Of a stretch of 64,000 bases of DNA, positions 23,383 to 38,458 are shown piece by piece. Every line of letters starts with the position of its first letter. Within the stretch, counting starts at the first letter, position 1. Origin of the DNA: Roseivirga sp. UBA6061 (GTDB lineage Bacteria; Bacteroidota; Bacteroidia; Cytophagales; Cyclobacteriaceae); NCBI GenBank assembly GCA_002427745.1, contig DIYF01000072.1, positions 1 through 64,000 on the forward strand, given 5' to 3'. The notes below the pieces were generated by a model. It saw only the letters and a program-made list of their open reading frames with translations, was not told the origin of the DNA and did not search any database. The position numbers and the translations under genes were made by a program.

Positions 23383-23779
23383 ATCGCCTGCCGGCTTTAA
23401 ATAATCATTGTCTTTATATTATCGGGAGATGAGCCCCCTGAACACAATGAGATTCTTTTCACAACATAAAACAACTTCAATAAAAGCACAATCACCGATA
23501 GAATTGACTGAGTGGTTTATACTGCGGGTGAACCTCAACATTTCTATGCCAGACCTGTAGTACACTTTCCTCAGGCATGAGAGAAGACTGAAAATCCACC
23601 CATGAAAGGCTCAACACTTTGAGCAATCTTTTTAAATTAAGCCCGCAGGACAAAATATGAGGCAATCATTCACGTTTTTGCTAAGTAAATGTCTATGTGA
23701 GGCTTTTGGTATAGTATATAGATAAACGTATATTAGCCGGTCCAATTTCACCTGGACGAATCCATTAAAGAAACTAAGT
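23383..23779. other. Intergenic region between the divergent kinase and gldJ genes
   Basis: 397 bases without a supported gene. Nearest to gldJ are a likely promoter (23705-23736) and a small hairpin GTCCA/TGGAC (about 23740-23756) at the start of its leader. For the kinase side I find no clear TAnnTTTG element. The middle part shows nothing recognisable. Confidence 0.5.
23705..23736 (+). promoter_or_regulatory. Probable promoter of gldJ
   Basis: TTTG (23705-23708), a 20-base spacer, then TATATTAG (23729-23736), one base off TAnnTTTG. The transcript would start near 23743, giving a leader of about 37 bases that begins with a short hairpin. Confidence 0.45.
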
Positions 23780-26050: not shown

Positions 26051-26401
26051 ATGAGTATCGTAGAAGAATTCAATGATTACAGAGCCAAAATGAATGAGAA
26101 GATACTCTCTGAAAAGAACACGGTTCTGAAGCGAATCTTCAATCTGGACACCAATGCTTTTGCTCCCGGTGCCGTTGATGTAAAAACCAAAGAGCTTGTC
26201 GGGCTCTCCAGTTCTATGGTCCTGAGGTGTGACGATTGTGTTCGCTATCATTTAGGCAAGTGTCACGAGATTGGTGTTAGCACTGCAGAGGTGTTTGAAA
26301 TATTTTCGATTGCCAACCTGATCGGAGGTACCATTGTCATCCCTCACCTGAGAAGGGCTGTAGAGTATTGGGAGGCTTTACAAGCCGGAGAAGATGTATA
26401 A
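26051..26401 (+). CDS. Carboxymuconolactone decarboxylase/AhpD-like family protein
   Basis: 116 residues, all helical. The AhpD-type redox motif CxxCxxxH is present (RCDDCVRYHL, about residues 60-69), preceded by KTKELVGLSSSMVL. Family members with this motif reduce peroxides or act as alkylhydroperoxidase partners; true decarboxylases lack it. Its last eight bases overlap the next gene, so the two are co-translated. Confidence 0.9.
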   Translation: MSIVEEFNDYRAKMNEKILSEKNTVLKRIFNLDTNAFAPGAVDVKTKELVGLSSSMVLRCDDCVRYHLGKCHEIGVSTAEVFEIFSIANLIGGTIVIPHLRRAVEYWEALQAGEDV

Positions 26402-26759
26402 AAAAGACCTCCAGCTTCAGCAATCATGGGCCAGGCTTATGAGCCAGGTTGAAAAAATGATAGGAAAACGTCCGAAAGACATGAACAGCATGCTCTTTCT
26501 CATAGGCGTACAGGAGTTGGGGCAGGGACAACGAAACTTCTCCAAAGAAGAGAAGCAGGACCTGATGCATATTGCCATCTGCAAAATACTGAGCTACTCC
26601 GATTTCTATGAATTAGAAGGAACGGATGAAGACGGTTGGCCACATTGGAAACCCAAGCGCCAGTTACCACATTTTGACCTCTTAGAACAAGAAAAGCTAT
26701 TGAAAATGCATGTTCTTGAATATTTTGAAAAGGAGTATGGAATAGACACCTCAAGCTGA
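26394..26759 (+). CDS. Conserved protein of unknown function linked to the AhpD-like gene
   Basis: 121 residues, soluble, no signal peptide. It has an acidic helical sequence with RPKDMNSMLFLIGVQELGQG near residues 25-44 and a tyrosine/tryptophan-rich C-terminal half (DGWPHWKPKR). I recognise no catalytic motif. It overlaps the AhpD-like gene by eight bases and precedes xth by seven, so the three probably form one transcript. Confidence 0.82.
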   Translation: MYKKDLQLQQSWARLMSQVEKMIGKRPKDMNSMLFLIGVQELGQGQRNFSKEEKQDLMHIAICKILSYSDFYELEGTDEDGWPHWKPKRQLPHFDLLEQEKLLKMHVLEYFEKEYGIDTSS

Positions 26760-26766
26760 AACAGAT

Positions 26767-27534
26767 ATGCCCAGGAAAATCATCTCTTACAATGTAAATG
26801 GTATCAGAGCAGCCCTGAAAAAGGATTTTGCTCAGTGGCTCGAAACTGAAAACCCGGATATTCTTTGTCTTCAGGAACTCAAGGCCTTACCGGAGCAAAT
26901 CGAACCGGCCGTCTTTGAAGAACTTGGTTATAAGCTCTATTGGGAAACAGCCGAAAAGAAGGGTTACAGCGGAGTGGCCATATTTACCAAAGACACACCG
27001 CTCCACGTGGAACATGGCTGTGGCAATCCACTTTATGATTCCGAAGGTCGTGTTATTCGGGCTGATTATGAAGATTTCTCCGTTATGAGTGTCTATATGC
27101 CCAGTGGTACCAGCGGTGATGTAAGACAAGATTTCAAATACGATTGGCTTGATTTCTTTTACGACTATGCCAATGATTTGAGAAAAACACACCCCAATCT
27201 GATCATAAGCGGAGATTACAATATAGCCCACAAAGCTATCGACATTCATAATCCGGTTTCCAACAAGAAATCGTCTGGCTTTCTGCCTGAAGAGCGTGCT
27301 TGGCTGACCAAATATGTTGAGTCAGGTTTTATAGATACTTTCAGGCATTTCAACCCCGACCCACATCATTATTCCTGGTGGAGTTACCGCGCCAACTCAA
27401 GAGCCAATAACAAAGGCTGGCGCATCGATTACCATATGGCCACTGCTCCTATGCAGGACAGACTTACCAATGCCGCGATATTGCCGGAGGCCGTTCACTC
27501 TGACCACTGTCCGATACTACTGGAAATTGATTGA
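26767..27534 (+). CDS. xth: Exodeoxyribonuclease III (AP endonuclease, Xth family)
   Basis: 255 residues, standard length for this family. It cleaves the backbone at abasic sites in base-excision repair. Motifs in order: ISYNVNGIRAA, LQELKA with the metal-binding Glu, SVYMPSG, SGDYNIAHKAID, a DTFRHF segment, RIDYHMAT, and the terminal SDHCPI with the catalytic Asp-His. Located seven bases after the preceding unknown gene. A parS-like sequence lies inside the gene at 26999-27014. Confidence 0.96.
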   Translation: MPRKIISYNVNGIRAALKKDFAQWLETENPDILCLQELKALPEQIEPAVFEELGYKLYWETAEKKGYSGVAIFTKDTPLHVEHGCGNPLYDSEGRVIRADYEDFSVMSVYMPSGTSGDVRQDFKYDWLDFFYDYANDLRKTHPNLIISGDYNIAHKAIDIHNPVSNKKSSGFLPEERAWLTKYVESGFIDTFRHFNPDPHHYSWWSYRANSRANNKGWRIDYHMATAPMQDRLTNAAILPEAVHSDHCPILLEID

Positions 27535-27623
27535 TTATATCGTATATTCCTCCGTTAATCAATTGTTTTACAATCAAATAAACGATTTGCTCGTATTAAT
27601 ACTGAGGCTAAGCAACAAGTAAG

Positions 27624-30600
27624 ATGGGATCTAATGAAGCACTGAAATCTCAGTTAAAAGCATACAAGCAAAAGTTCTATAAAAACAAGGCAATCAAGGG
27701 GGCAATTCTCCTGCTTGCTTTTGTTCTTTCATTCTTTATTCTCACAAATACACTGGAGTTTTCGGCCCGGTTTGACTCCACTGGCAGAGCATTGCTTTTC
27801 TATGGATTTCTTACCGGATCACTGATCGCTTTTTACCTATGGGTAGGTAAGTATTTATGGCTGTTAAGAGATACATCACGTCAGATAACCAATGAAGAAG
27901 CAGCACTTCAAATAGGTGCACACTTTCCAGAAGTATCTGATAAGCTATTGAATATCATACAGTTAGAACAACTAACTAATCAGCAAAACGAACTATTGGT
28001 AGCCGGCATTCGCCAAAAAAGTCAGGAGATATCCAAAATCCCCTTTGTTTCAGCTATCGACTACTCCAAAAACAGGAAGTACTTCAGATACGCTATTGTT
28101 CCCGCTTCTATTATCGCCTTACTTCTCATATTCGTTCCCAGGTTTATTACAGACAGTTCAGCCAGAATCATTAATTACAACACTGACTTTGTTCCTGAAG
28201 CACCATTCAGTTTTACTCTGGCAAATGAACAGCTCCTGGCCTTTAAAGGAGAAAGCTATACACTTAAAATCAACACAGAAGGTCGCGCAGAGCCAGAGAA
28301 TGTGTATGTCTGGTCTAATAATAGAAAGGTTAAAGCCCAAAAAGTCGGTACGGGATCATTTGAGTACGTTTTTAACAGATTGCAATCAGATACCGAATTC
28401 CGACTGGAAGCAGAGAGTATTTCCTCCGGTGATTATGAAATACAAGTTGTGTCCAGGCCCAGTCTCTCGCTCTTTAATCTGGAACTGGATTTCCCTCCTT
28501 ACTTAAAAAGGGATCCTCAAACGATCGAAAACTCAGGTAATGTGACTATTCCTGAGGGCACAACGATCAAATGGAGTTTTACCACTGAAAGTGCTGAAAG
28601 TGTAAGACTCAATTTTACCAAACTGGAAGAAAAGGTGAGTGCCAACAAGACAGGTAGTTCGCTTTTCAGCTTCCAGAAGTCATTCCGACAGTCTACACCT
28701 TATTCTATCCAATTGGAGAATGAGTATAGCACCAACCGTGATTCATTACAATTCGGTATTGAAACCGTTAAAGATCGCTATCCTGAAATTACACTCGAGC
28801 AATACCAGGATACGGTACTCTTCCAAAATCTGGTCTTAGCCGGTAACATCTCCGATGACTACGGCTTTGCCAAGCTGGCTTTTCACTATAAATACGAGTC
28901 TGAAGATGAGTATACAATAGTGCCTTTCGAGATCAACCGCAACCTGAATAGTCAAAGTTATTATCAGGTTTTCAACCTCGATTCCGCCCGAGTTAAAGCA
29001 GGATCAGAGCTCTCCTATTATTTACAAGTATCTGACAATGACGGAGTTAATGGTTCTAAATCCAGTAAAACCGGTACATATTCCTTTAAAATTCCCTCTC
29101 AAAAGGAAATAGAAGAAGATCTGGAAAAAAGCTCACAGCAGGTACAGGATGAAATAGACAAAACACTACAGGAAGCCAAAGAACTCAATGAAAAGATTGC
29201 CGAAGCTGACGAACGCCTGAAGACTAAAAAACAGATGGACTGGCAGGATGAAAAACTCATGCAGGATATCATCAAACAAAAAGAGAAACTGGCTGAAAAA
29301 ATAGAAGATCTCAAAAAGGAGAATCAGCTCAATAACATGAAGCGTGAACAGTTCACTCCGCAGGATGAAAGTGTCAAAAAGAAGATGGAGCAGCTTCAGG
29401 AACTTATGGACAATATTCTTGATGAGGAAACAAAAAAGCTCTATGAAGAATTAAAGCAACTCCTTGAAGAACAGGCAGATATGTCAGAGTTCCGCGATAA
29501 GATGGAAGAACTTAAAGGCAAAGAAGGTGATCTGGAACAGGAACTTGAGCGTACTTTGGAGCTCTTTAAGAAGATGCAGTTCGACATGAAGCTCGAAGAA
29601 AACATCAAGGACCTTCAGGAGCAGATTGAAGATCAGGAAAAACTCAATGAAGAAACCAGCGACAGAAAGAACGACACTGAGGAACTGAGTGAACAGCAGT
29701 CAGAGGAGAAAAAGGATACTGAAGAATTGCAGGAGCAGCTGGAAGAGTTGAACGAGCTGAATCAAAAAAGAGAAAACCCTGATGCGTTGCCTGAAGATAT
29801 GCAGGAACAGCTTGAGCAGATCAAACAAGAGCAGCAGAACGCCAGTGAACAGCTGGAGAATAACAAGCGTAAGAAAGCCGGGAAATCTCAGCAGAACGCC
29901 ACTCAGCAAATGAAGAAGCTACAGAAGAGCCTGCAAGCCATGCAAAACAGCATGGGCATGGAACAACAGCAGGAAGATCTGAGTTTTCTGAGAGACCTCG
30001 TAGATAATCTGGTTACCCTCTCTTTCAACCAGGAAGAACTCATGAATGAGTTTAAAGAGATCAGACAGAGCGATCCTCGTTTTGTTGAGTTCTCACAAAG
30101 ACAGCTCAAGCTAAAAGATGATTCCAAAACCACTCAGGACAGTCTGGTTTCGCTTTCAAAACGAGTCTTTCAGATTTCCTCTTTCGTAATGCGTGAGCTT
30201 AGCGAAATGAATCGTCAGATGGATGGTGCACTAGATGCTTTGAAAGAGAAAAGATTGAACCAAGCCACTGGTAAACAGCAGTTTACGATGACATCGATCA
30301 ATAACCTTGCCCTCCTCTTAGATGATGTTCTTCAGCAAATGCAGGAACAAATGGCACAACAAATGGGTATGGGTCAAAAGGGTAAAGGTAAAAATCAACC
30401 GATGCCAGGAGGCCTTAGTGATCTTCAAAAACAATTGAGTCAGCAGATTCAACAACTTAAGAAAAGTGGTAAATCGGGCAGAGCACTCTCTGAAGAACTT
30501 GCCAGGCTTGCCGCACAACAGGAGCGTCTGAGAAATGCACTACAGGAAATGGAGACCGGTCTGGATGGTGGCAAACAATTGGGTGAACAAATTGACAAGC

Positions 30601-30914
30601 TTATTGAGCAGATGGAAAAGAACGAGGAGGATCTTATTAATAAGAATATCACAGATGAGACCATAGAAAGACAGCAGGAAATTCTCACCCGCTTACTTGA
30701 AGCAGAGACAGCTGTTAAAGAAAGAGGACAGGAAGAAGAGCGCAAAGCAGCCACCGCTTACGACTATGAGCTTTCCGTTCCGGAATCAATTAACGAGTAT
30801 CTCAAAGCAAAAGAGAAAGAAATTGAACTTTTGAAAACAATACCTGCTAAATTGAACCCTTATTACAAAAAGGAAACTAATAAGTACTTCAAAAAGATTA
30901 AGCAGCAGAACTGA
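27624..30914 (+). CDS. DUF4175 family membrane protein with long coiled coils
   Basis: 1096 residues. Three membrane helices (about 23-41, 57-78, 154-174) are followed by a beta-rich outside region (about 190-480), and then by more than 500 residues of charged coiled coil very rich in Glu, Gln and Lys (about 490-830 and 930-1070), with a more conserved block FLRDLVDNLVTLSF in between. The layout matches the Bacteroidota-specific DUF4175 family, whose function is unknown; the design suggests a scaffold spanning the periplasm. It is followed after 11 bases by an RsbW-like ATPase gene and then ybeY. Confidence 0.9.
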   Translation: MGSNEALKSQLKAYKQKFYKNKAIKGAILLLAFVLSFFILTNTLEFSARFDSTGRALLFYGFLTGSLIAFYLWVGKYLWLLRDTSRQITNEEAALQIGAHFPEVSDKLLNIIQLEQLTNQQNELLVAGIRQKSQEISKIPFVSAIDYSKNRKYFRYAIVPASIIALLLIFVPRFITDSSARIINYNTDFVPEAPFSFTLANEQLLAFKGESYTLKINTEGRAEPENVYVWSNNRKVKAQKVGTGSFEYVFNRLQSDTEFRLEAESISSGDYEIQVVSRPSLSLFNLELDFPPYLKRDPQTIENSGNVTIPEGTTIKWSFTTESAESVRLNFTKLEEKVSANKTGSSLFSFQKSFRQSTPYSIQLENEYSTNRDSLQFGIETVKDRYPEITLEQYQDTVLFQNLVLAGNISDDYGFAKLAFHYKYESEDEYTIVPFEINRNLNSQSYYQVFNLDSARVKAGSELSYYLQVSDNDGVNGSKSSKTGTYSFKIPSQKEIEEDLEKSSQQVQDEIDKTLQEAKELNEKIAEADERLKTKKQMDWQDEKLMQDIIKQKEKLAEKIEDLKKENQLNNMKREQFTPQDESVKKKMEQLQELMDNILDEETKKLYEELKQLLEEQADMSEFRDKMEELKGKEGDLEQELERTLELFKKMQFDMKLEENIKDLQEQIEDQEKLNEETSDRKNDTEELSEQQSEEKKDTEELQEQLEELNELNQKRENPDALPEDMQEQLEQIKQEQQNASEQLENNKRKKAGKSQQNATQQMKKLQKSLQAMQNSMGMEQQQEDLSFLRDLVDNLVTLSFNQEELMNEFKEIRQSDPRFVEFSQRQLKLKDDSKTTQDSLVSLSKRVFQISSFVMRELSEMNRQMDGALDALKEKRLNQATGKQQFTMTSINNLALLLDDVLQQMQEQMAQQMGMGQKGKGKNQPMPGGLSDLQKQLSQQIQQLKKSGKSGRALSEELARLAAQQERLRNALQEMETGLDGGKQLGEQIDKLIEQMEKNEEDLINKNITDETIERQQEILTRLLEAETAVKERGQEEERKAATAYDYELSVPESINEYLKAKEKEIELLKTIPAKLNPYYKKETNKYFKKIKQQN

Positions 30915-30925
30915 CGCAACCGTAA

Positions 30926-31327
30926 ATGAACACGATTAACATACAGATTCCTTCCTTGCTTGAGAATATTCGCATAGTCGAGAGCTTTATTGATAACGCC
31001 AAAGACAAGTACGACTTAGATGACGACATTTACGGTAATATTATGATTGCTGTGATAGAATCCGTCAATAATGCCATTGTTCATGGCAACAATGCTGATA
31101 AAGAGAAGAATGTTGATCTTTCTCTTCTTTTTGATGAAGAACAAATCAGATTTACCATTGCAGATGAGGGTAACGGATTCAATATCAATAACTTACCTGA
31201 TCCTACAGCTCCTGAAAACCTCGAAAGAACAGGAGGTAGAGGTATCTTTCTGATGAAGCACCTTGCAGACGAAGTCAGCTTCAAAAATGACGGCCAAAAG
31301 GTCGAGCTGACGTTCTATCTCAACTAA
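30926..31327 (+). CDS. RsbW/SpoIIAB-like ATP-binding protein (anti-sigma factor type kinase)
   Basis: 133 residues forming a lone GHKL ATPase domain: N-box AVIESVNNAIVHGN, G1 box IADEGNGF, G2 box TGGRGIFLM. Such proteins are serine kinases that control anti-sigma antagonists in Gram-positives. In Bacteroidota they stand next to ybeY without a known partner. Its stop codon shares one base with the ybeY start (TAATG). Confidence 0.92.
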   Translation: MNTINIQIPSLLENIRIVESFIDNAKDKYDLDDDIYGNIMIAVIESVNNAIVHGNNADKEKNVDLSLLFDEEQIRFTIADEGNGFNINNLPDPTAPENLERTGGRGIFLMKHLADEVSFKNDGQKVELTFYLN

Positions 31328-31761
31328 TGGACTCTATCCATTTTTTTTCCGAAGACACTACCTATGCCTTAGAGCAGGCCCAAGTTACACAGGATTGGGT
31401 GGCCTCTGTTATTTCCAATCACGACCAGCAGGTAGAAGCACTCAACTTCATATTCTGTTCAGATTATTATCTGCTTGATATCAACAGAACATATCTGAAC
31501 CACGATTACTATACTGACATTATCACTTTTGACAATCGTGAATCTGACTCAGACAACCTGGAGTCAGATATTTTTATATCTATAGATCGCATTCAGGACA
31601 ATGCGTCAAGTCTCGGTATACCCTTCGACAGAGAATTACACAGAGTCATCATTCATGGCGTTCTTCACTTACTCGGCTGGAATGACAAGACCCAAGAGCA
31701 AAAAGAGGCCATGAGAGAAAAAGAAGAAGCTTGCTTATCTTTGCACCCAAATTATGATTAA
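31327..31761 (+). CDS. ybeY: Endoribonuclease YbeY (rRNA maturation factor)
   Basis: 144 residues. The metal-binding core VIIHGVLHLLGW has the two His of HGxxH. The third position reads Asp (GWNDKT) where many proteobacterial enzymes have His, a form that is common in Bacteroidota. The N-terminal NHDYYTDIITFDN region is also typical. YbeY processes 16S rRNA ends and takes part in ribosome quality control. Coupled to the RsbW-like gene by a one-base overlap. Confidence 0.95.
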   Translation: MDSIHFFSEDTTYALEQAQVTQDWVASVISNHDQQVEALNFIFCSDYYLLDINRTYLNHDYYTDIITFDNRESDSDNLESDIFISIDRIQDNASSLGIPFDRELHRVIIHGVLHLLGWNDKTQEQKEAMREKEEACLSLHPNYD

Positions 31762-31765
31762 GCAC

Positions 31766-31781
31766 TGTTCCACGTGAAACA
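31766..31781. promoter_or_regulatory. parS site 1 (ParB binding site)
   Basis: TGTTCCACGTGAAACA matches the bacterial parS consensus TGTTYCACGTGRAACA at all positions. It lies five bases after the ybeY stop. parS sites are where ParB loads for chromosome segregation and normally cluster near oriC, as here. Confidence 0.9.
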
Positions 31782-31802
31782 CTTCAGCTGACCTAAGCCG
31801 AC

Positions 31803-31818
31803 TGTTCCACGTGGAACA
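31803..31818. promoter_or_regulatory. parS site 2 (ParB binding site)
   Basis: TGTTCCACGTGGAACA is a perfect 16-base palindrome and a full parS match. It is 37 bases from site 1 centre to centre, with the shared flank ACTGTTCCACGTG and an ACTT end in both. Both sites fill the 70-base gap between ybeY and mnmG. Confidence 0.92.
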
Positions 31819-31831
31819 CTTATCAAGCGCC

Positions 31832-33697
31832 ATGTTTTCACAGTATGATATTATAGTAGTTGGAGCCGGTCATGCCGGTTGCGAGGCAGCATATGCGGCT
31901 GCCAGGATGGGATCAAAAGTCATGCTCATCACGATGAACATGAACACTATTGCTCAAATGTCTTGTAATCCAGCCATGGGTGGAGTAGCTAAAGGGCAAA
32001 TTGTTCGTGAGATAGATGCCCTCGGTGGAATGTCCGGTATCATCTCAGATAAGTCGATGATTCAGTTTCGCATGCTGAATAAGTCGAAAGGTCCGGCCAT
32101 GTGGAGTCCTAGAACACAAAACGACCGCATGAGGTTTGCCGAAGAATGGCGTCTGGCTCTCGAAGCCAATCCAAATGTTGATTTCTGGCAGGAAATGGTC
32201 ACAGGCATTATTGTCGAAAATCAGCGCGTAGTAGGTGTTACTACGGGTATGGGTATTGAGTTTCGTGCCAAAGCAGTAGTTCTTACCAACGGCACCTTTC
32301 TCAACGGTATCATACATATTGGTGAAAAACAATTTGGTGGTGGTAGAACGGGGGAGAGGGCCGCAAAGGGAATTACAGAACAACTCGTACAATTGGGTTT
32401 TGAATCCGGACGTATGAAGACAGGTACCCCCCCACGTGTGGATGGTCGCTCCCTGGACTTTAGTAAAATGGAAGAACAAGCCGGGGATGAAAATCCGGGG
32501 AAGTTTTCATATTCCAGCGAGACCAAGTCTTTATCCCGTCAACGCAGCTGTTTCATTACCTATACCAATCCTGATGTTCATAGCATATTGGAGACCGGCT
32601 TTGATAGATCACCCATGTTCAATGGGCGTATTCAAGGGCTGGGACCAAGATATTGTCCCTCTATTGAAGACAAGATCAACCGCTTTGCCGAACGCAGCAG
32701 ACACCAGATTTTTGTAGAACCTGAGGGTTGGGACACAGTTGAGATTTATGTTAATGGCTTTTCCACATCACTGCCAGAAGATGTACAACATAAGGCCATG
32801 AGACAGATAGCCGGTTTTGAAAACGCCAAAATGTTCAGACCCGGTTATGCCATAGAATACGACTACTTTCCCCCAACACAGCTATCTTCTACACTCGAAA
32901 CCCAGCTCATTGAAAACCTGTATTTCGCAGGTCAGATCAATGGAACAACAGGCTATGAAGAGGCTGCATGTCAGGGACTCATGGCAGGTATCAACGCCCA
33001 TCATAAAATCAGCGAAAAAGAAGAGTTTACACTTTCCCGTTCTGAAGCTTACATCGGAGTGCTAATAGATGATTTGATTAATAAAGGTACTGACGAACCT
33101 TACCGTATGTTTACCTCCAGGGCGGAATACAGAATACTGCTAAGACAGGATAATGCTGATATCAGACTTACTGAAAAAGGTCACCAGATAGGACTGGCAG
33201 ATGATGGCAGACTCAGGGACGTAGAGCAGAAAAATCAGGAAACTGCTAAACTGATCAATGATCTGAAACAGAAAAAAATTGCCCCGGCAGAGGCCAACCC
33301 TTCTCTTAATAAACTGGGAACTTCCGAGCTGCAGCACAGAACGACCTACAGTAAACTCGTAAAAAGACCACAGGTATCCATCATGGATTTGCCTGCCTTT
33401 CAGTCAGACATGGCAGATTACCTGAGCAAATATGAACCAGAAGTTTTAGAGCAGGCTGAGATCATATTGAAGTATGAAGACTATATAGACAAAGAGCATA
33501 AGATGGCCGAGAAAATATCTACACTGGAAAGTGTGAAGATTTCGAATGATTTCGACTTTGATGCTATTAAAGCTCTTTCTTCAGAGGCCCGTGAGAAGTT
33601 CAAAAAAATCAAACCAAGGACAATAGGCCAGGCATCCCGAATCAGCGGAGTATCACCAGCCGACATTTCTGTACTAATGGTTTTCATGGGTCGCTAA
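31832..33697 (+). CDS. mnmG: tRNA uridine-5-carboxymethylaminomethyl modification enzyme MnmG (GidA)
   Basis: 621 residues from the ATG at 31832 (MFSQYDIIVVGAGHAGCEAA); the GTG at 31811 lies inside parS site 2 and is rejected. FAD-binding GAGHAGCE at the start, CNPAMGGVAKGQIVREIDAL, the catalytic Cys in RMKTGTPPRV region neighbourhood, and the C-terminal tRNA-binding helical domain (RPQVSIMDLP, ASRISGVSPADISVLMVF). With MnmE it modifies the wobble uridine of several tRNAs. mnmG is a frequent oriC neighbour in bacteria, which agrees with the parS sites before it and the DnaA boxes 2.5 kb downstream. Confidence 0.98.
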   Translation: MFSQYDIIVVGAGHAGCEAAYAAARMGSKVMLITMNMNTIAQMSCNPAMGGVAKGQIVREIDALGGMSGIISDKSMIQFRMLNKSKGPAMWSPRTQNDRMRFAEEWRLALEANPNVDFWQEMVTGIIVENQRVVGVTTGMGIEFRAKAVVLTNGTFLNGIIHIGEKQFGGGRTGERAAKGITEQLVQLGFESGRMKTGTPPRVDGRSLDFSKMEEQAGDENPGKFSYSSETKSLSRQRSCFITYTNPDVHSILETGFDRSPMFNGRIQGLGPRYCPSIEDKINRFAERSRHQIFVEPEGWDTVEIYVNGFSTSLPEDVQHKAMRQIAGFENAKMFRPGYAIEYDYFPPTQLSSTLETQLIENLYFAGQINGTTGYEEAACQGLMAGINAHHKISEKEEFTLSRSEAYIGVLIDDLINKGTDEPYRMFTSRAEYRILLRQDNADIRLTEKGHQIGLADDGRLRDVEQKNQETAKLINDLKQKKIAPAEANPSLNKLGTSELQHRTTYSKLVKRPQVSIMDLPAFQSDMADYLSKYEPEVLEQAEIILKYEDYIDKEHKMAEKISTLESVKISNDFDFDAIKALSSEAREKFKKIKPRTIGQASRISGVSPADISVLMVFMGR

Positions 33698-33698
33698 A

Positions 33699-34574
33699 AT
33701 GAACGAAACAGTCAATGTTTGCCCTGTATGCAACGGAGAGAAGTTTGTAGATAGCTTCGAATGTCCGGATCACTTTCTGTCCAAAGAGATATTCACTCTA
33801 CAGAAGTGCAGTAATTGTGATACGCTGATCACAAACCCTCGTCCGGATCAAAAATCAATAGTAACCTACTATAAATCAGATAGTTACATATCTCATAGCA
33901 ATCAATCCAACTCTCTGATCAATGTAATTTACAAGCAAGTCCGTTCCATCACGCTTAAGCGGAAAATCAAGATGATTGAGCGCTTTGCTTTTCAAGGTAA
34001 GCTGCTCGACTACGGTTGTGGCACTGGTCACTTTCTATCCTATGCCTCTCAGCATGGATGGAACATCAGAGGCGTTGAACCTGATGATACAGCCCGTAGT
34101 CAGATTACCGAAAACCTGAGTCCCTATGTAGCGTCTTCCTTACCGGAACTGACAGATCATGACTTTGATGTAATTACACTTTTCCATGTGCTGGAGCATG
34201 TTCATTCGCTCGAGGAAACCCTCAGTGATTTAATAGCTCGTTTGAATAGAAATGGTGTTCTCTTTCTGGCACTGCCCAATTATAAGAGTGCAGACGCTGC
34301 CAGGTATGGTACACATTGGGCCGGCTATGATGTACCTCGCCATCTATATCATTTCAATCAGAAATCAATATTCCACTTATCTAAAAAATATGGTCTGAAT
34401 ATTGTTTCTACGATTCCCATGAAATTCGATAGTTATTATGTAAGTATGCTTTCAGAAAAGTATCTGGGAAACACATCTTCATTCCTTAGAGGAATGCTAA
34501 ACGGATATCGCTCTAACAAACAAGCCAGACACACCAGAGAATATAGTAGTCTCATCTACGTACTCACCAAATGA
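33699..34574 (+). CDS. Class I SAM-dependent methyltransferase with N-terminal zinc-ribbon
   Basis: 291 residues. The N-terminus has a CxxC...CxxC zinc-ribbon (CPVCNG, KCSNCD) as seen in sugar C-methyltransferase-like proteins. The SAM-binding motif LLDYGCGTGHFL follows at about residues 103-115, with VEPDD and VITLFHVLEHVHSLEE as motifs II and IV. The substrate is unknown. The ATG lies one base after the mnmG stop and the 3' end overlaps the next gene by four bases. Confidence 0.88.
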   Translation: MNETVNVCPVCNGEKFVDSFECPDHFLSKEIFTLQKCSNCDTLITNPRPDQKSIVTYYKSDSYISHSNQSNSLINVIYKQVRSITLKRKIKMIERFAFQGKLLDYGCGTGHFLSYASQHGWNIRGVEPDDTARSQITENLSPYVASSLPELTDHDFDVITLFHVLEHVHSLEETLSDLIARLNRNGVLFLALPNYKSADAARYGTHWAGYDVPRHLYHFNQKSIFHLSKKYGLNIVSTIPMKFDSYYVSMLSEKYLGNTSSFLRGMLNGYRSNKQARHTREYSSLIYVLTK

Positions 34575-36217
34575 AAAAGTTCCTACTAAGTCTCATCTCT
34601 GTTTTGATACTGTCATTCATCATTGGCAGCTGCGCCCGTATCACTTCGCCAGAAGGAGGACCGGAAGATCTGACACCTCCCACACTCATTTCTTCGGTAC
34701 CGGAAAATGAACAAACCAATTATACAGGTAAAACCATCGTACTGACCTTTGACGAATATGTCAATACTCAGGGTATAGAAAACAACCTTATTATTACCCC
34801 GGCTCTGGAGGGAGATGGCATACTTAAGAGTAAAATCAAGAAGCGTTCTGTGATCCTTACCTTTCCAGATGAGTGGAAAGAAAACACCACTTACAATATC
34901 AACTTTGGCAATACCATTCAGGATGCCACCAACAGAAATATCCCACCTGACCTTAACCTCAGCTTTTCCACAGGTGACTACATAGATTCACTGCAGATTT
35001 CCGGAATCATCACAGATCTCTATTCAAAAGAACCTGTTGAGAAAGCACTCGTCTCACTGTATACGATCACGGACACACTCGATATTACTTCAGGTTCAGC
35101 GTCATATTATGCCCGCACAGACAGCAGTGGTTTTTATCGCTTTAAGAATCTTCCACCCGGGGAATATTATATCTACAGTGCCATGGATAATAACAATAAC
35201 CTGAAAGCAGATTCTGATGAAGAGTCTTACGGATTTTATAAGGACTCACTCAACCTCCAATCCAACATAACCGGTATTGACTTTGATATTCAAAGGCTGG
35301 ATATTACTCCTCTCAAGGTAAGCTCCGCCAGGCATTTCGGTAGGTATTATGACATCGAGTTTAATAAGCCGATTATCTCTTATGACATACTCAACAACGA
35401 CACTGTTTCATTTCGTAAGCTAGAGGATAATAAACTTCGCTTTTATAATACAGGCTTTCTATTCAACGACACCATACCACTCATCATCCAGGCTAACGAT
35501 TCAATCAACAGCCAGTTAAGAGATACCGTTAACTTCTACTTCAATGAATCTAAGATAGAGGCTGATAAATTCGACTACAATATTTTACCCAGCTCTAGCG
35601 CCCTGATACCAAACGACAGTATCAAGCTTGATTTTACAAAACCAGTCAGGTCATACGATAAGGACAGTCTCATCTTTGAAATAGACTCATTAAACTTCTT
35701 CAATCTGGATGACTCTCTTTTCACGTGGAACGATACACGTACACAGGTTTCATGGCCCATGAATCTCAGCGATTATATTAAAGAAGATCAGACACTGAAA
35801 ATGCTGCTTAAACCAAGGGCTTTTTTCAGCATCGAAAATGATACATCCAATGCCCGGGTAAAAAACCTCAAGATGTTTAAACCAGATGATGCAGGTGTCA
35901 TTAATGGATCTATCAATACTGACGCACCCAACTATATTATACAGCTGCTCAATTCAAGAACGCTCGAGGTAATACAGACTAAATACAATGAACCCAGCTA
36001 CTCCTTTCAGTATCTGAATGCAGGTACCTATCTCGTCAAAGTCATCATTGATACTAATGGAAATGGCGCATGGGATATAGGCAATATTCTGAACCGTACT
36101 GAGGCAGAACCCGTCATCTACTATCTCGATGACTTTACCAACACTCGTATTATAGAGCTCCGGAAGAACTGGATTGTTGACGATATCAACCTTTCATATC
36201 GTGTGAATAACCAGTAG
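34571..36217 (+). CDS. Lipoprotein with Big_5-type Ig-like domain
   Basis: 548 residues with a lipoprotein signal (SFIIGSCARI, Cys21 region). Residues about 35-140 form a Big_5 Ig-like domain (PEGGPEDLTPPTLISSVPE, IVLTFDEYV, TTYNINFGNTIQDATN). A carboxypeptidase-regulatory-like beta-sandwich follows (about 145-240, SGFYRFKNLPPGEYYIYSAM), and a second such unit stands near the C-terminus (YLNAGTYLVKVIIDTNGNG). This architecture is common in Bacteroidota surface lipoproteins of unknown function. It is the last gene before oriC, read toward it. A degenerate parS-like site lies within it at 35717-35732. Confidence 0.88.
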   Translation: MKKFLLSLISVLILSFIIGSCARITSPEGGPEDLTPPTLISSVPENEQTNYTGKTIVLTFDEYVNTQGIENNLIITPALEGDGILKSKIKKRSVILTFPDEWKENTTYNINFGNTIQDATNRNIPPDLNLSFSTGDYIDSLQISGIITDLYSKEPVEKALVSLYTITDTLDITSGSASYYARTDSSGFYRFKNLPPGEYYIYSAMDNNNNLKADSDEESYGFYKDSLNLQSNITGIDFDIQRLDITPLKVSSARHFGRYYDIEFNKPIISYDILNNDTVSFRKLEDNKLRFYNTGFLFNDTIPLIIQANDSINSQLRDTVNFYFNESKIEADKFDYNILPSSSALIPNDSIKLDFTKPVRSYDKDSLIFEIDSLNFFNLDDSLFTWNDTRTQVSWPMNLSDYIKEDQTLKMLLKPRAFFSIENDTSNARVKNLKMFKPDDAGVINGSINTDAPNYIIQLLNSRTLEVIQTKYNEPSYSFQYLNAGTYLVKVIIDTNGNGAWDIGNILNRTEAEPVIYYLDDFTNTRIIELRKNWIVDDINLSYRVNNQ

Positions 36218-36592
36218 CCTCTGTGTATAAATCTGTTGTCAGTCTCAGAGATATGCACAGTCTTGCACAACCCTTAACGTTATCCATTCGAAAAAAACGG
36301 AAAACTGAAGTTTTCAGGAATCTATCAATGCGTAATCCACAGTGAATAAAGTCCACAAGTCTTATCCACAAAAAAGTTTATTTATCACAAAATCTACATA
36401 AAACTCTTATAATCAAATATTTACAAGTAGATAACTTGTTGATAACTCAAAATTACCTGACCATTCATACACAATTCCAAATCAGATTTGTGAGTAGTCA
36501 CGTTATACACATATCCACATCCCTAATAGAGAATAGTATAATTTATTAATTAACTATCTTTAATTACTAGCCTGTTGATTATGTTAATAAGT
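36218..36592. other. Probable chromosomal replication origin (oriC) with DnaA boxes and AT-rich unwinding region
   Basis: 375 AT-rich bases without a gene. Exact DnaA boxes (TTATMCACA): 36222-36230 on the minus strand, 36362-36370 (TTATCCACA) and 36503-36511 on the plus strand. One-mismatch boxes: 36333-36341, 36437-36445 (minus strand), 36465-36473 and 36511-36519, the last sharing one base with an exact box. A weaker one is at 36280-36288. From about 36521 to 36590 the sequence is almost all A and T (TATAATTTATTAATTAAC), a likely DNA unwinding element. Two parS sites at 4.5 kb and mnmG nearby support the call. dnaA is not adjacent, which is common in this phylum. Confidence 0.88.
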
Positions 36593-38458
36593 ATGAGGAG
36601 AATCGTTTCGGCAGTCTTGCTGGTTTTAGTAACTACTACACTGATCGCACAGTCCAGTGATCCGGTGGCATTGGCCAATGAGTATTACAGACAAGGTGAG
36701 CTTGAAAAGGCACAGGAGCAGTACAAGAAACTTGCGAGAAATAAACGCAACGTTGTACGGATTCATGATAACTATTTCAAGTTGCTCCTGACCATACAGG
36801 ATTTTGAGGGAGCTGAGAAGTATGTGAAGAACGTTCTCAAACAATTTCCGGAGAATTATCTATATGAAATAGATCTGGGTATTGTTTATCAGGCACAACA
36901 GAAAGACGAAGCTGCAGATAAATACTTTGACAGTATCATCAGGAAGGTGGCCAAGAAAGCCAGAGACAAACGCAAGACTAATGATATACGGGTGTTGGCA
37001 CAAACCTTCTTTGAAAAAAACCTGAGAGAAAAGGCTCTCCTGACTTATCAGAAAGGAAGAGAGGCTCTCAACAGGCCGAGCCTGTTTTCTCTGGAACTGG
37101 CTAATGCATACAGGCTGATGAACAAGAAGCAGCTGATGATTAAGGAGTACCTCACCTTTTCCAAATCGCAGCCGCAAAACCTCAACTATGTAAAAAATTC
37201 GTTCCAGCGGGTACTCAAGGAACCTGCAGATTTGGACACCCTGGAAATGATATTGTATGATTTTATTCAGGAAGCAGAAGGAGAACCCATTTACAATGAG
37301 ATGCTTATCTGGACGCATCTCCAGCAGAAAAATTTTGCCGCTGCGCTCAGACAGGCCTATGCCCTGGACAGCCGGAATAAGGCCCAAAAATCTGAAGAGG
37401 GTCAACCACAGCGTAAGAAAAGAAATGACGGTGAGAACATAATCAATGTCGGTCTCATCGCTTATCGCAATGCAGACTACAAAACTGCGGAAAAGGCTTT
37501 TAATTATATCATCAGAGACTACCCTGACAGCCCAAGCAGCAGACTGGCTCAAAAGTATGTGCTGTTATCGGAAGAAGAGGTGGTCAAGTCGAGCTACCCG
37601 GTAGATACCGCAGCTGTACGGGAACTGATAGCCAAGTACGAGGCATTTAAAGGCCAGTCACGCGATTTGTTTACTGCACTTGATGCCCAGCGTAGGAAAG
37701 CGCTCTTACATGCCTTCTATCTCAATGAAATACCTGAGTCGATAGAGATACTGACTGACCTTGTAAGTCAACCGGTGGGTAAACACAGAATCATTGCTGA
37801 ATCCAAAATGGACCTGGCCGATATTTACCTGCTGGATAAACAACCCTGGGAGTCCATTCTGCTTTATGCCCAGGTGGAAAGAATGTTTAAAGACGAACCA
37901 CTGGGTTATGAAGCCAAATTAAAAAGCGCCAAGCTCTCTTACTTTAAAGGTGAATTTGAACTGGCCCAGGGTCATCTCGACATTCTCAAGCTGGCCACCT
38001 CAAGAGAAATAGCCAATGATGCTTTGAATCTCAGTATCCTCATCAAGAATAACACGGTATTTGATTCAACCGATCTGGTAATGCAGGAATATGCGAATGT
38101 CGAGTTAATGCTCTTTCAAAATCAAAAACAGGAAGCTTTGACTGCGCTCGATGAAATGGTAGAGAAGTATGCACAACATTCAATTGTAGACGAGGTATAC
38201 TTTCTGAAAGCAAAGACCTACCGTGAACTCGGTGAACCGGGGAAGGCCATAGAAGCACTGAATAAAATCAACGAGAGTTTCTACTTCGAGATTCTTGGAG
38301 ATGATGCGCTCTTCCTGACTGCGGTGATTCACGAAGATGATCTCAAGGATGCTGAGAAGTCTATGGAGCTCTACACTGAGCTCCTGAATAAGTATCCGGG
38401 CAGCATATTTGTATCTGAAGCAAGAAAGCGTTTTCGTGAGTTAAGAGGAGACTTCTAG
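36593..38458 (+). CDS. Secreted tetratricopeptide-repeat protein
   Basis: 621 residues from the ATG at 36593, which opens directly into a signal peptide (MRRIVSAVLLVLVTTTLIAQ); earlier TTG/ATG codons at 36575 and 36581 would only lengthen its n-region. The rest is helical with TPR pairs along its length (for example DPVALANEYYRQGELEKAQEQY, NADYKTAEKAFNYIIRDYPDS and DDLKDAEKSMELYTELLNKYPGS). TPR proteins of this kind act as scaffolds in periplasmic complexes; no specific partner is evident. First gene to the right of oriC, read away from it. Confidence 0.88.
   Translation: MRRIVSAVLLVLVTTTLIAQSSDPVALANEYYRQGELEKAQEQYKKLARNKRNVVRIHDNYFKLLLTIQDFEGAEKYVKNVLKQFPENYLYEIDLGIVYQAQQKDEAADKYFDSIIRKVAKKARDKRKTNDIRVLAQTFFEKNLREKALLTYQKGREALNRPSLFSLELANAYRLMNKKQLMIKEYLTFSKSQPQNLNYVKNSFQRVLKEPADLDTLEMILYDFIQEAEGEPIYNEMLIWTHLQQKNFAAALRQAYALDSRNKAQKSEEGQPQRKKRNDGENIINVGLIAYRNADYKTAEKAFNYIIRDYPDSPSSRLAQKYVLLSEEEVVKSSYPVDTAAVRELIAKYEAFKGQSRDLFTALDAQRRKALLHAFYLNEIPESIEILTDLVSQPVGKHRIIAESKMDLADIYLLDKQPWESILLYAQVERMFKDEPLGYEAKLKSAKLSYFKGEFELAQGHLDILKLATSREIANDALNLSILIKNNTVFDSTDLVMQEYANVELMLFQNQKQEALTALDEMVEKYAQHSIVDEVYFLKAKTYRELGEPGKAIEALNKINESFYFEILGDDALFLTAVIHEDDLKDAEKSMELYTELLNKYPGSIFVSEARKRFRELRGDF

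Follow-up and report, generated by a model that had tools for sequence, protein, structure and literature searches.

Within the Cytophagales, Xu et al. reportedly described in 2012 replicating oriC plasmids of Cytophaga hutchinsonii, a member of the same order as Roseivirga. In the Flavobacteriaceae, an origin near mnmG and distant from dnaA has been predicted for Mariniflexile litorale (PMC11278836) and for Algorimicrobium (PMC12843772), both times by Ori-Finder and, according to the accessible parts of the two papers, in agreement with GC skew. For Mariniflexile, the accessible text adds that the position of dnaA did not match the skew plot, and a figure legend labels mnmG as ter, contradicting the paper's own text (PMC11278836). 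In gut bacteria studied by Hi-C, clusters of parS mark the origin where dnaA is unreliable, as stated in the available portions of that study (PMC10197239). The anatomy of the origin is known from more distant systems: as far as the accessible passages go, the basal unwinding system of B. subtilis and oriC2 of H. pylori are composed of fused or overlapping DnaA boxes, a short GC-rich spacer and an AT-rich segment (PMC6669920, PMC8235120), and the unwinding elements of the Thermotoga maritima and E. coli origins carry TTATT-like and TAG elements and have the boxes beside them, a GC-rich spacer being present in T. maritima (PMC10316083). In the latter two species a single region next to the unwinding element holds the boxes, and the two oppositely directed box clusters of E. 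coli lie within it, in the account given by the accessible part of the same paper (PMC10316083).

We analysed a 64-kb stretch of DNA (the window) from a Roseivirga-like bacterium of the Cytophagales (the NCBI taxonomy places Roseivirga species in the Roseivirgaceae), and we propose, with a probability of about 0.93, that the intergenic gap at 36218-36592 is its chromosomal oriC (Table 1). This reading is carried by the DnaA boxes of the gap, their conservation, the uniqueness and proximity of the parS sites, a switch of the skew in one congener, and the independence of the locus from dnaA and from the neighbouring gene for a TPR protein. The gap resembles the predicted origins of the Flavobacteriaceae in lying near mnmG and away from dnaA, but, set against the accessible parts of those reports, it differs in its position three genes past mnmG, in belonging to another family, in the comparative and parS evidence and in having a defined core. 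An mnmG-proximal, dnaA-distant oriC is already known by prediction in the Flavobacteriaceae, and Roseivirga adds a possible structural variant. As in the gut bacteria, parS lies near the origin and dnaA is a poor mark, although that study deals with other species and its accessible portions do not include the anatomy of an origin sequence (PMC10197239). Compared with the available descriptions of B. subtilis and H. pylori, which it resembles in fused boxes, spacer and AT-rich segment, the Roseivirga gap has one clear DnaA-trio and an additional inward-facing box on the far side of the putative unwinding element and, unlike the origin of B. subtilis, it does not adjoin dnaA. The TAATA repeats of the gap correspond on the opposite strand to TTATT, which the accessible part of the T. 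maritima and E. coli account mentions as a motif (PMC10316083).

Table 1. Features of the proposed origin region (coordinates in the 64-kb window; a dot in the strand column means that no strand is assigned)
Feature	Coordinates	Strand	Basis or remark
parS site 1	31766..31781	.	exact match
parS site 2, extending into the listed mnmG start	31803..31818	.	exact match
mnmG (gidA)	31811..33697	+	TIGR00136, 854 bits, cut-off 525
SAM-dependent methyltransferase gene	33699..34574	+	PF13489
Big_5 domain protein gene, left neighbour of oriC	34571..36217	+	PF13205
Exact DnaA box at the 3' end of the Big_5 gene, over its last codons	36202..36210	-	
Highly probable oriC, intergenic gap with DnaA-box cluster	36218..36592	.	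boxes, 69.3% A/T, shuffles, conservation in relatives
Exact DnaA box TTATACACA	36222..36230	-	
Exact DnaA box TTATCCACA	36362..36370	+	
Second AT-rich stretch inside the gap	36368..36437	.	81% A/T
Tandem pair of fused DnaA boxes, TTATACACA and ATATCCACA sharing one base; origin core	36503..36519	+	
Short C-rich spacer and conserved TAATA, start of the putative unwinding element	36520..36528	+	DnaA-trio-like; TTATT-like on the other strand
Putative AT-rich DNA unwinding element	36529..36581	.	
Inward-facing DnaA box TTATTAACA, far side of the putative unwinding element	36582..36590	-	1 mismatch
TPR protein gene, right neighbour of oriC	36593..38458	+	TPR families

The gap contains three exact DnaA boxes (TTATNCACA; 36222-, 36362+ and 36503+) and seven with one mismatch (36251+, 36333+, 36341-, 36437-, 36465+, 36511+ and 36582-), in accordance with the sequence-only reading, which had noticed three exact and at least four near-exact boxes on both strands. 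Between 36218 and 36574, the three exact boxes and the nine at up to one mismatch compare with means of 0.046 and 0.8 in dinucleotide shuffles, 0/1000 of which reached either count. The whole window holds five exact boxes, four of them within 36202-36511, and its 12 top-scoring 300-bp box stretches are all located at the gap. At the aligned place of box 36362-36370, 16 same-genus sequences showed an exact box in nine cases, one mismatch in six, and two mismatches in G001. The A/T content of the gap (69.3%) is the highest among the eight gaps longer than 150 bp, counted between the open reading frames taken as genes in the window; another gap (23383-23779, 397 bp) exceeds it in length. A nearly pure A/T segment of about 70 bases had been described, but the gap has none: the best 70 bp of the gap (36368-36437) have only 81% A/T, the purest 30 bp (36537-36566) have 93%, and the bases adjoining the fused boxes (36520-36581) have 77%. 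The first listed start of the TPR gene is at 36575; the ATG at 36593 precedes a stretch that, judged by eye, resembles a signal peptide.

Some features of the surroundings may be recorded here. The genes left of the gap (26051-36217, 10 kb) are mainly on the plus strand and are therefore read toward the origin, head-on to a leftward fork. The strongest 1-kb step of AT skew in the window (0.41 at 29001-30000) lies inside a 1096-aa DUF4175 gene, and a long run of minus-strand open reading frames (40499-63910), the first of which encodes a bacterial sugar transferase, is perhaps a surface-glycan cluster.

Within the window, cumulative GC skew dips only locally at 36-38 kb; it declines again from 41 kb on and reaches lower values at 64 kb. 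For G001, a near-closed congener, the TPR match starts at 3,378,505 of a 4.58-Mb main contig. Among 20 samples spaced about 240 kb apart, 10/10 of the left arm were negative and 9/10 of the right arm positive (19/20 as expected); denser samples were negative in 10/10 cases with starts at 3.12-3.36 Mb, the last of which holds the gap, and positive in 9/9 with starts at 3.38-3.60 Mb. Over a contiguous 220 kb the cumulative minimum was found at 3,378,610, roughly 100 bases away from where the TPR match begins, so that the check on the skew minimum suggested along with the sequence-only reading, run on this congener, leads to the orthologous gap; together with the boxes in the orthologous gaps of relatives, this supports the reading of the gap as oriC. 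The minimum is shallow over about 35 kb to its left (values of about -850 to -1073 at 3.345-3.380 Mb), and by skew alone the origin can therefore be located no more closely than some tens of kb. The opposite sign change is situated between 0.98 and 1.04 Mb, the antipode being at 1.09 Mb if the contig is circular; the sign has changed by the samples at 1.04 and 1.08 Mb, which is 50 kb short of the antipode. Two further genomes of the order gave less clear pictures. In G028, too noisy to place the switch, the best contrast was at 3.35-3.40 Mb, whereas the gap is at 3.67 Mb (unevenly sampled; Mann-Whitney p 0.063); in G033 it was at 1.85-1.95 Mb, with 1.75 Mb nearly equal (0.0658 vs 0.0679), a profile that is at most compatible with an origin at the gap.

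The single dnaA match of the genome is on contig C176 and the window on contig C137, as expected from the earlier remark that dnaA is not adjacent. In G001, dnaA is at 2.763 Mb, which is 615 kb away from the gap, and the samples on either side of it are negative. An oriC linked to dnaA was rejected for the genus on this one skew test, the dnaA of G001 being without a flanking sign change, and further evidence against it is that no exact box was found within 1.5 kb of the dnaA of the genome under study. One or two exact boxes occur upstream of dnaA in 7/13 dnaA loci, which we read as autoregulation, beside a possible extra role as origin.

At up to one mismatch, the two parS sites of Table 1 are the only ones in the 8.18-Mb draft (188 contigs), and they lie 4.4 kb from the gap; mnmG and two parS sites had been placed within 5 kb, and this was confirmed. 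One ParB match was found in the genome. There is an overlap of 8 bases between the second parS site and the listed GTG start of mnmG, and ParB binding could therefore touch the expression of mnmG, or the true start might be further in. The genome is large (8.2 Mb vs 4-5 Mb in most congeners listed; the sister genome G008, whose TPR protein is 91% identical, has 8.6 Mb), and its unusual size would fit a second replicon (chromid) with the gap as its origin. The orthologous locus of G001, however, is on the 4.58-Mb main contig, and the genome under study has one dnaA match, one ParB match and one parS pair, which makes a chromid origin scarcely credible.

Our reading as chromosomal oriC is in keeping with the distribution of parS among relatives. 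The search covered 29 of 39 genomes (own included), of which 21 had exact parS; in 17 of these 21, all sites are about 4.4-5.7 kb upstream of the TPR gene, and the remaining four comprise G036 (parS at 13.2 kb), G022 and G024 (parS on a different contig) and G019 (no TPR gene). The search of the genome of G001 gave no exact parS. G007, of the same genus, has neither a TPR homologue nor exact parS. Among the loci from named records outside the Hymenobacteraceae with at least 6.5 kb upstream, 34/54 contained exact parS, and all 59 sites in these 34 loci fall between -6188 and -4746 relative to the TPR gene.

Of the 39 genomes searched, which include the one under study, 36 have the TPR homologue; in a first set of 30 loci (own included), 26 show one exact box or more in the stretch of 1.5 kb or less before the gene. 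In three loci (L033, L036 and L038), the 700 bases preceding the TPR gene were free of boxes, even with one mismatch allowed, and L035 had no exact box. In a larger set of 62 loci from named records outside the Hymenobacteraceae, each of them up to 22 kb long and reaching 700 bases or more upstream of the TPR gene, the gap before this gene was the densest box stretch in 60, the exceptions being L170 and L183; some records outside the Hymenobacteraceae have general or doubtful titles (e.g., L160, L175 and L189). The boxes that the sequence-only reading expected to be conserved in relatives are indeed present in most of them. Clusters of DnaA boxes also exist outside oriC, at datA- and DARS-like loci, and the gap might be such a site of DnaA titration or reactivation with the true oriC within the same few tens of kb, the distance to which the skew of G001 alone can place the origin. 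We consider this very improbable, since the 12 best 300-bp stretches of the window are all at the gap, the gap outscores every other stretch in 60/62 of the loci just described, and the conserved layout of fused boxes, spacer and AT-rich segment (see below) is that of an unwinding site.

The Hymenobacteraceae, a group of 17 loci defined by record title, were set apart after the absence of boxes before their TPR genes had been noticed; its three genera were confirmed as one family. The densest stretch was before the TPR gene in 1/16 of these loci. In four genomes of the group (Pontibacter and Adhaeribacter), the TPR gene is 55-91 kb from parS, and the same four (L220, L222, L223 and L224) have a gap after a Big_5-sized gene, 4.5-5.8 kb from parS, with 5-8 boxes; one of these boxes in all, in G041, is exact, and the others have drifted to mismatched forms. 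Each gap contains a degenerate fused pair, then a short spacer, then a TAA-containing stretch, and letter shuffles equalled the degenerate core in 10, 1, 0 and 0 of 300; beside all four runs the row parS-mnmG-methyltransferase-Big_5-sized gene. In G042, a stretch near parS scored equal to the gap in a cruder count. A second type of evidence comes from G019, of the same family as the window, in which a TPR homologue was not found: its gap, between Big_5-sized and ligase-sized genes, has 10 boxes at up to one mismatch (one exact; the last overlaps the next start), and an exact inward-facing far box is present without the TPR gene in this one genome. This box-rich gap (L226, 60406-60863 in contig coordinates) is retained in what amounts to a natural deletion of the TPR gene. 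Gene names in the stretches of G019 and the Hymenobacteraceae were assigned by size and order.

The loss of the TPR gene in G019 and its relocation in the Hymenobacteraceae indicate that the boxes follow the parS-mnmG side and not the TPR gene, and this bears on the possibility that the boxes serve DnaA in regulating the TPR gene and form no origin at all. DnaA is also a transcription factor, which lends this possibility some appeal, as does the position of the cluster, which abuts the TPR start, the last box ending two bases before the ATG. However, G019 keeps its boxes without a TPR gene, the four Pontibacter and Adhaeribacter genomes keep a box gap with a fused pair beside parS-mnmG while the TPR gene is far off, in 15/16 loci of the Hymenobacteraceae the densest stretch is elsewhere than before the TPR gene, and regulation of this gene would explain neither skew nor parS. 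We therefore rejected TPR regulation on the cases of loss and relocation and regard it as highly unlikely, and the uniqueness of parS, together with these natural cases, adds independent support to the gap being oriC.

The fused pair is the sole one in the window at the thresholds used. The spacer after it is followed by one clear DnaA-trio (CTA on the plus strand, 3'-GAT-5' on the other strand) and then by a period-3 TAATAATA pattern with changes of phase (register read by eye). We surveyed this core in 85 unique loci outside the Hymenobacteraceae, after removal of 8 duplicates. An overlapping box pair facing the TPR gene was present in 56 of them, compared with 16 on the other strand, none in reversed text, and 0/17 before the TPR gene in the Hymenobacteraceae. 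A TAAT or TAGT anchor (TA[AG]T), sought in the 9 nt that follow the fused pair, was found in 50 of the 56 loci, and the six without anchor were excluded from the count of far boxes. In these 50 loci, the spacer measures 3-4 nt in 49 and is 69% G+C, the 55 nt from the anchor have a mean of 86% A/T, and a back-facing box with no more than one mismatch was found in 36 loci, in 31 of which it lies 57-60 nt from the anchor; a far box in the opposite orientation was seen in 1/50. Reversed text gave 17/53 at up to one mismatch (in a set including duplicate genomes), which weakens the far-box count taken alone, so that more is learned from the orientation (1/50) and the narrow position as controls; the loci share ancestry, and the rows of the survey are therefore not independent. 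A pattern of fused pair plus TAATA, searched at up to three mismatches in four same-genus genomes (own included) and in G028, matched once each in G000, G001, G008 and G018, at the locus of the gap, and gave no match in the genome of G028.

A class-wide set of 20 mnmG regions (L240-L259), one per family and on long contigs, was drawn from the 117/119 genomes with a match. Exact parS was present within 3.1 kb of the mnmG start in 12 of the 20 regions, mostly just before the start or just after the stop of mnmG, a broad linkage of parS and mnmG. Fused pairs occurred in three of the 20 (G043, G104 and G109), shortly after mnmG in G109 only, and strong canonical box clusters were few; these 20 regions do not establish the core beyond the order, and its extension to the class was rejected.

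From these elements we infer how the origin might fire. DnaA would bind the scattered boxes, above all the fused pair, and would pass over the C-rich spacer of 3-4 bases onto one strand of the AT-rich segment 36524-36581, an extension proposed by analogy with B. subtilis and H. pylori; the segment would then be opened and replicative helicases loaded there. Segregation of the new origin copy would be the task of ParB bound to the parS pair 4.4 kb away. On its far side, the opened segment could be bounded by the inward-facing box, which may hold DnaA in place for a second helicase and whose presence suggests a two-sided arrangement. As a tentative and still doubtful generalisation, the core of the Cytophagales may be two-sided, with the fused boxes and an inward-facing box (57-60 nt from the TAATA anchor) bracketing an unwinding element of 60 bases. 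If so, it would represent a symmetric variant of the one-sided systems of B. subtilis, H. pylori and T. maritima, as these are portrayed in the accessible literature, in which DnaA engages both edges and could place one helicase per strand. Of this core, the four Hymenobacteraceae retain the fused half, with degenerate boxes and an unchanged distance to parS. The accessible literature on opposed boxes around an unwinding element and on the DnaA-trio yielded no description of a two-sided core, nor was an account of the Cytophagales core described here found in it, most subscription papers and the DoriC entries being outside its reach.

For the Cytophagales, where the orientation of genomes by dnaA fails, the locus provides a rule for finding oriC: parS, mnmG, methyltransferase and Big_5 genes, followed by fused boxes and TAATA. 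Such a rule affects the choice of genome start points, the analysis of replichores and the estimation of growth rates from read coverage. Should the two-sided core prove functional, the loading of two helicases in opposing directions could be tested in a simple origin.
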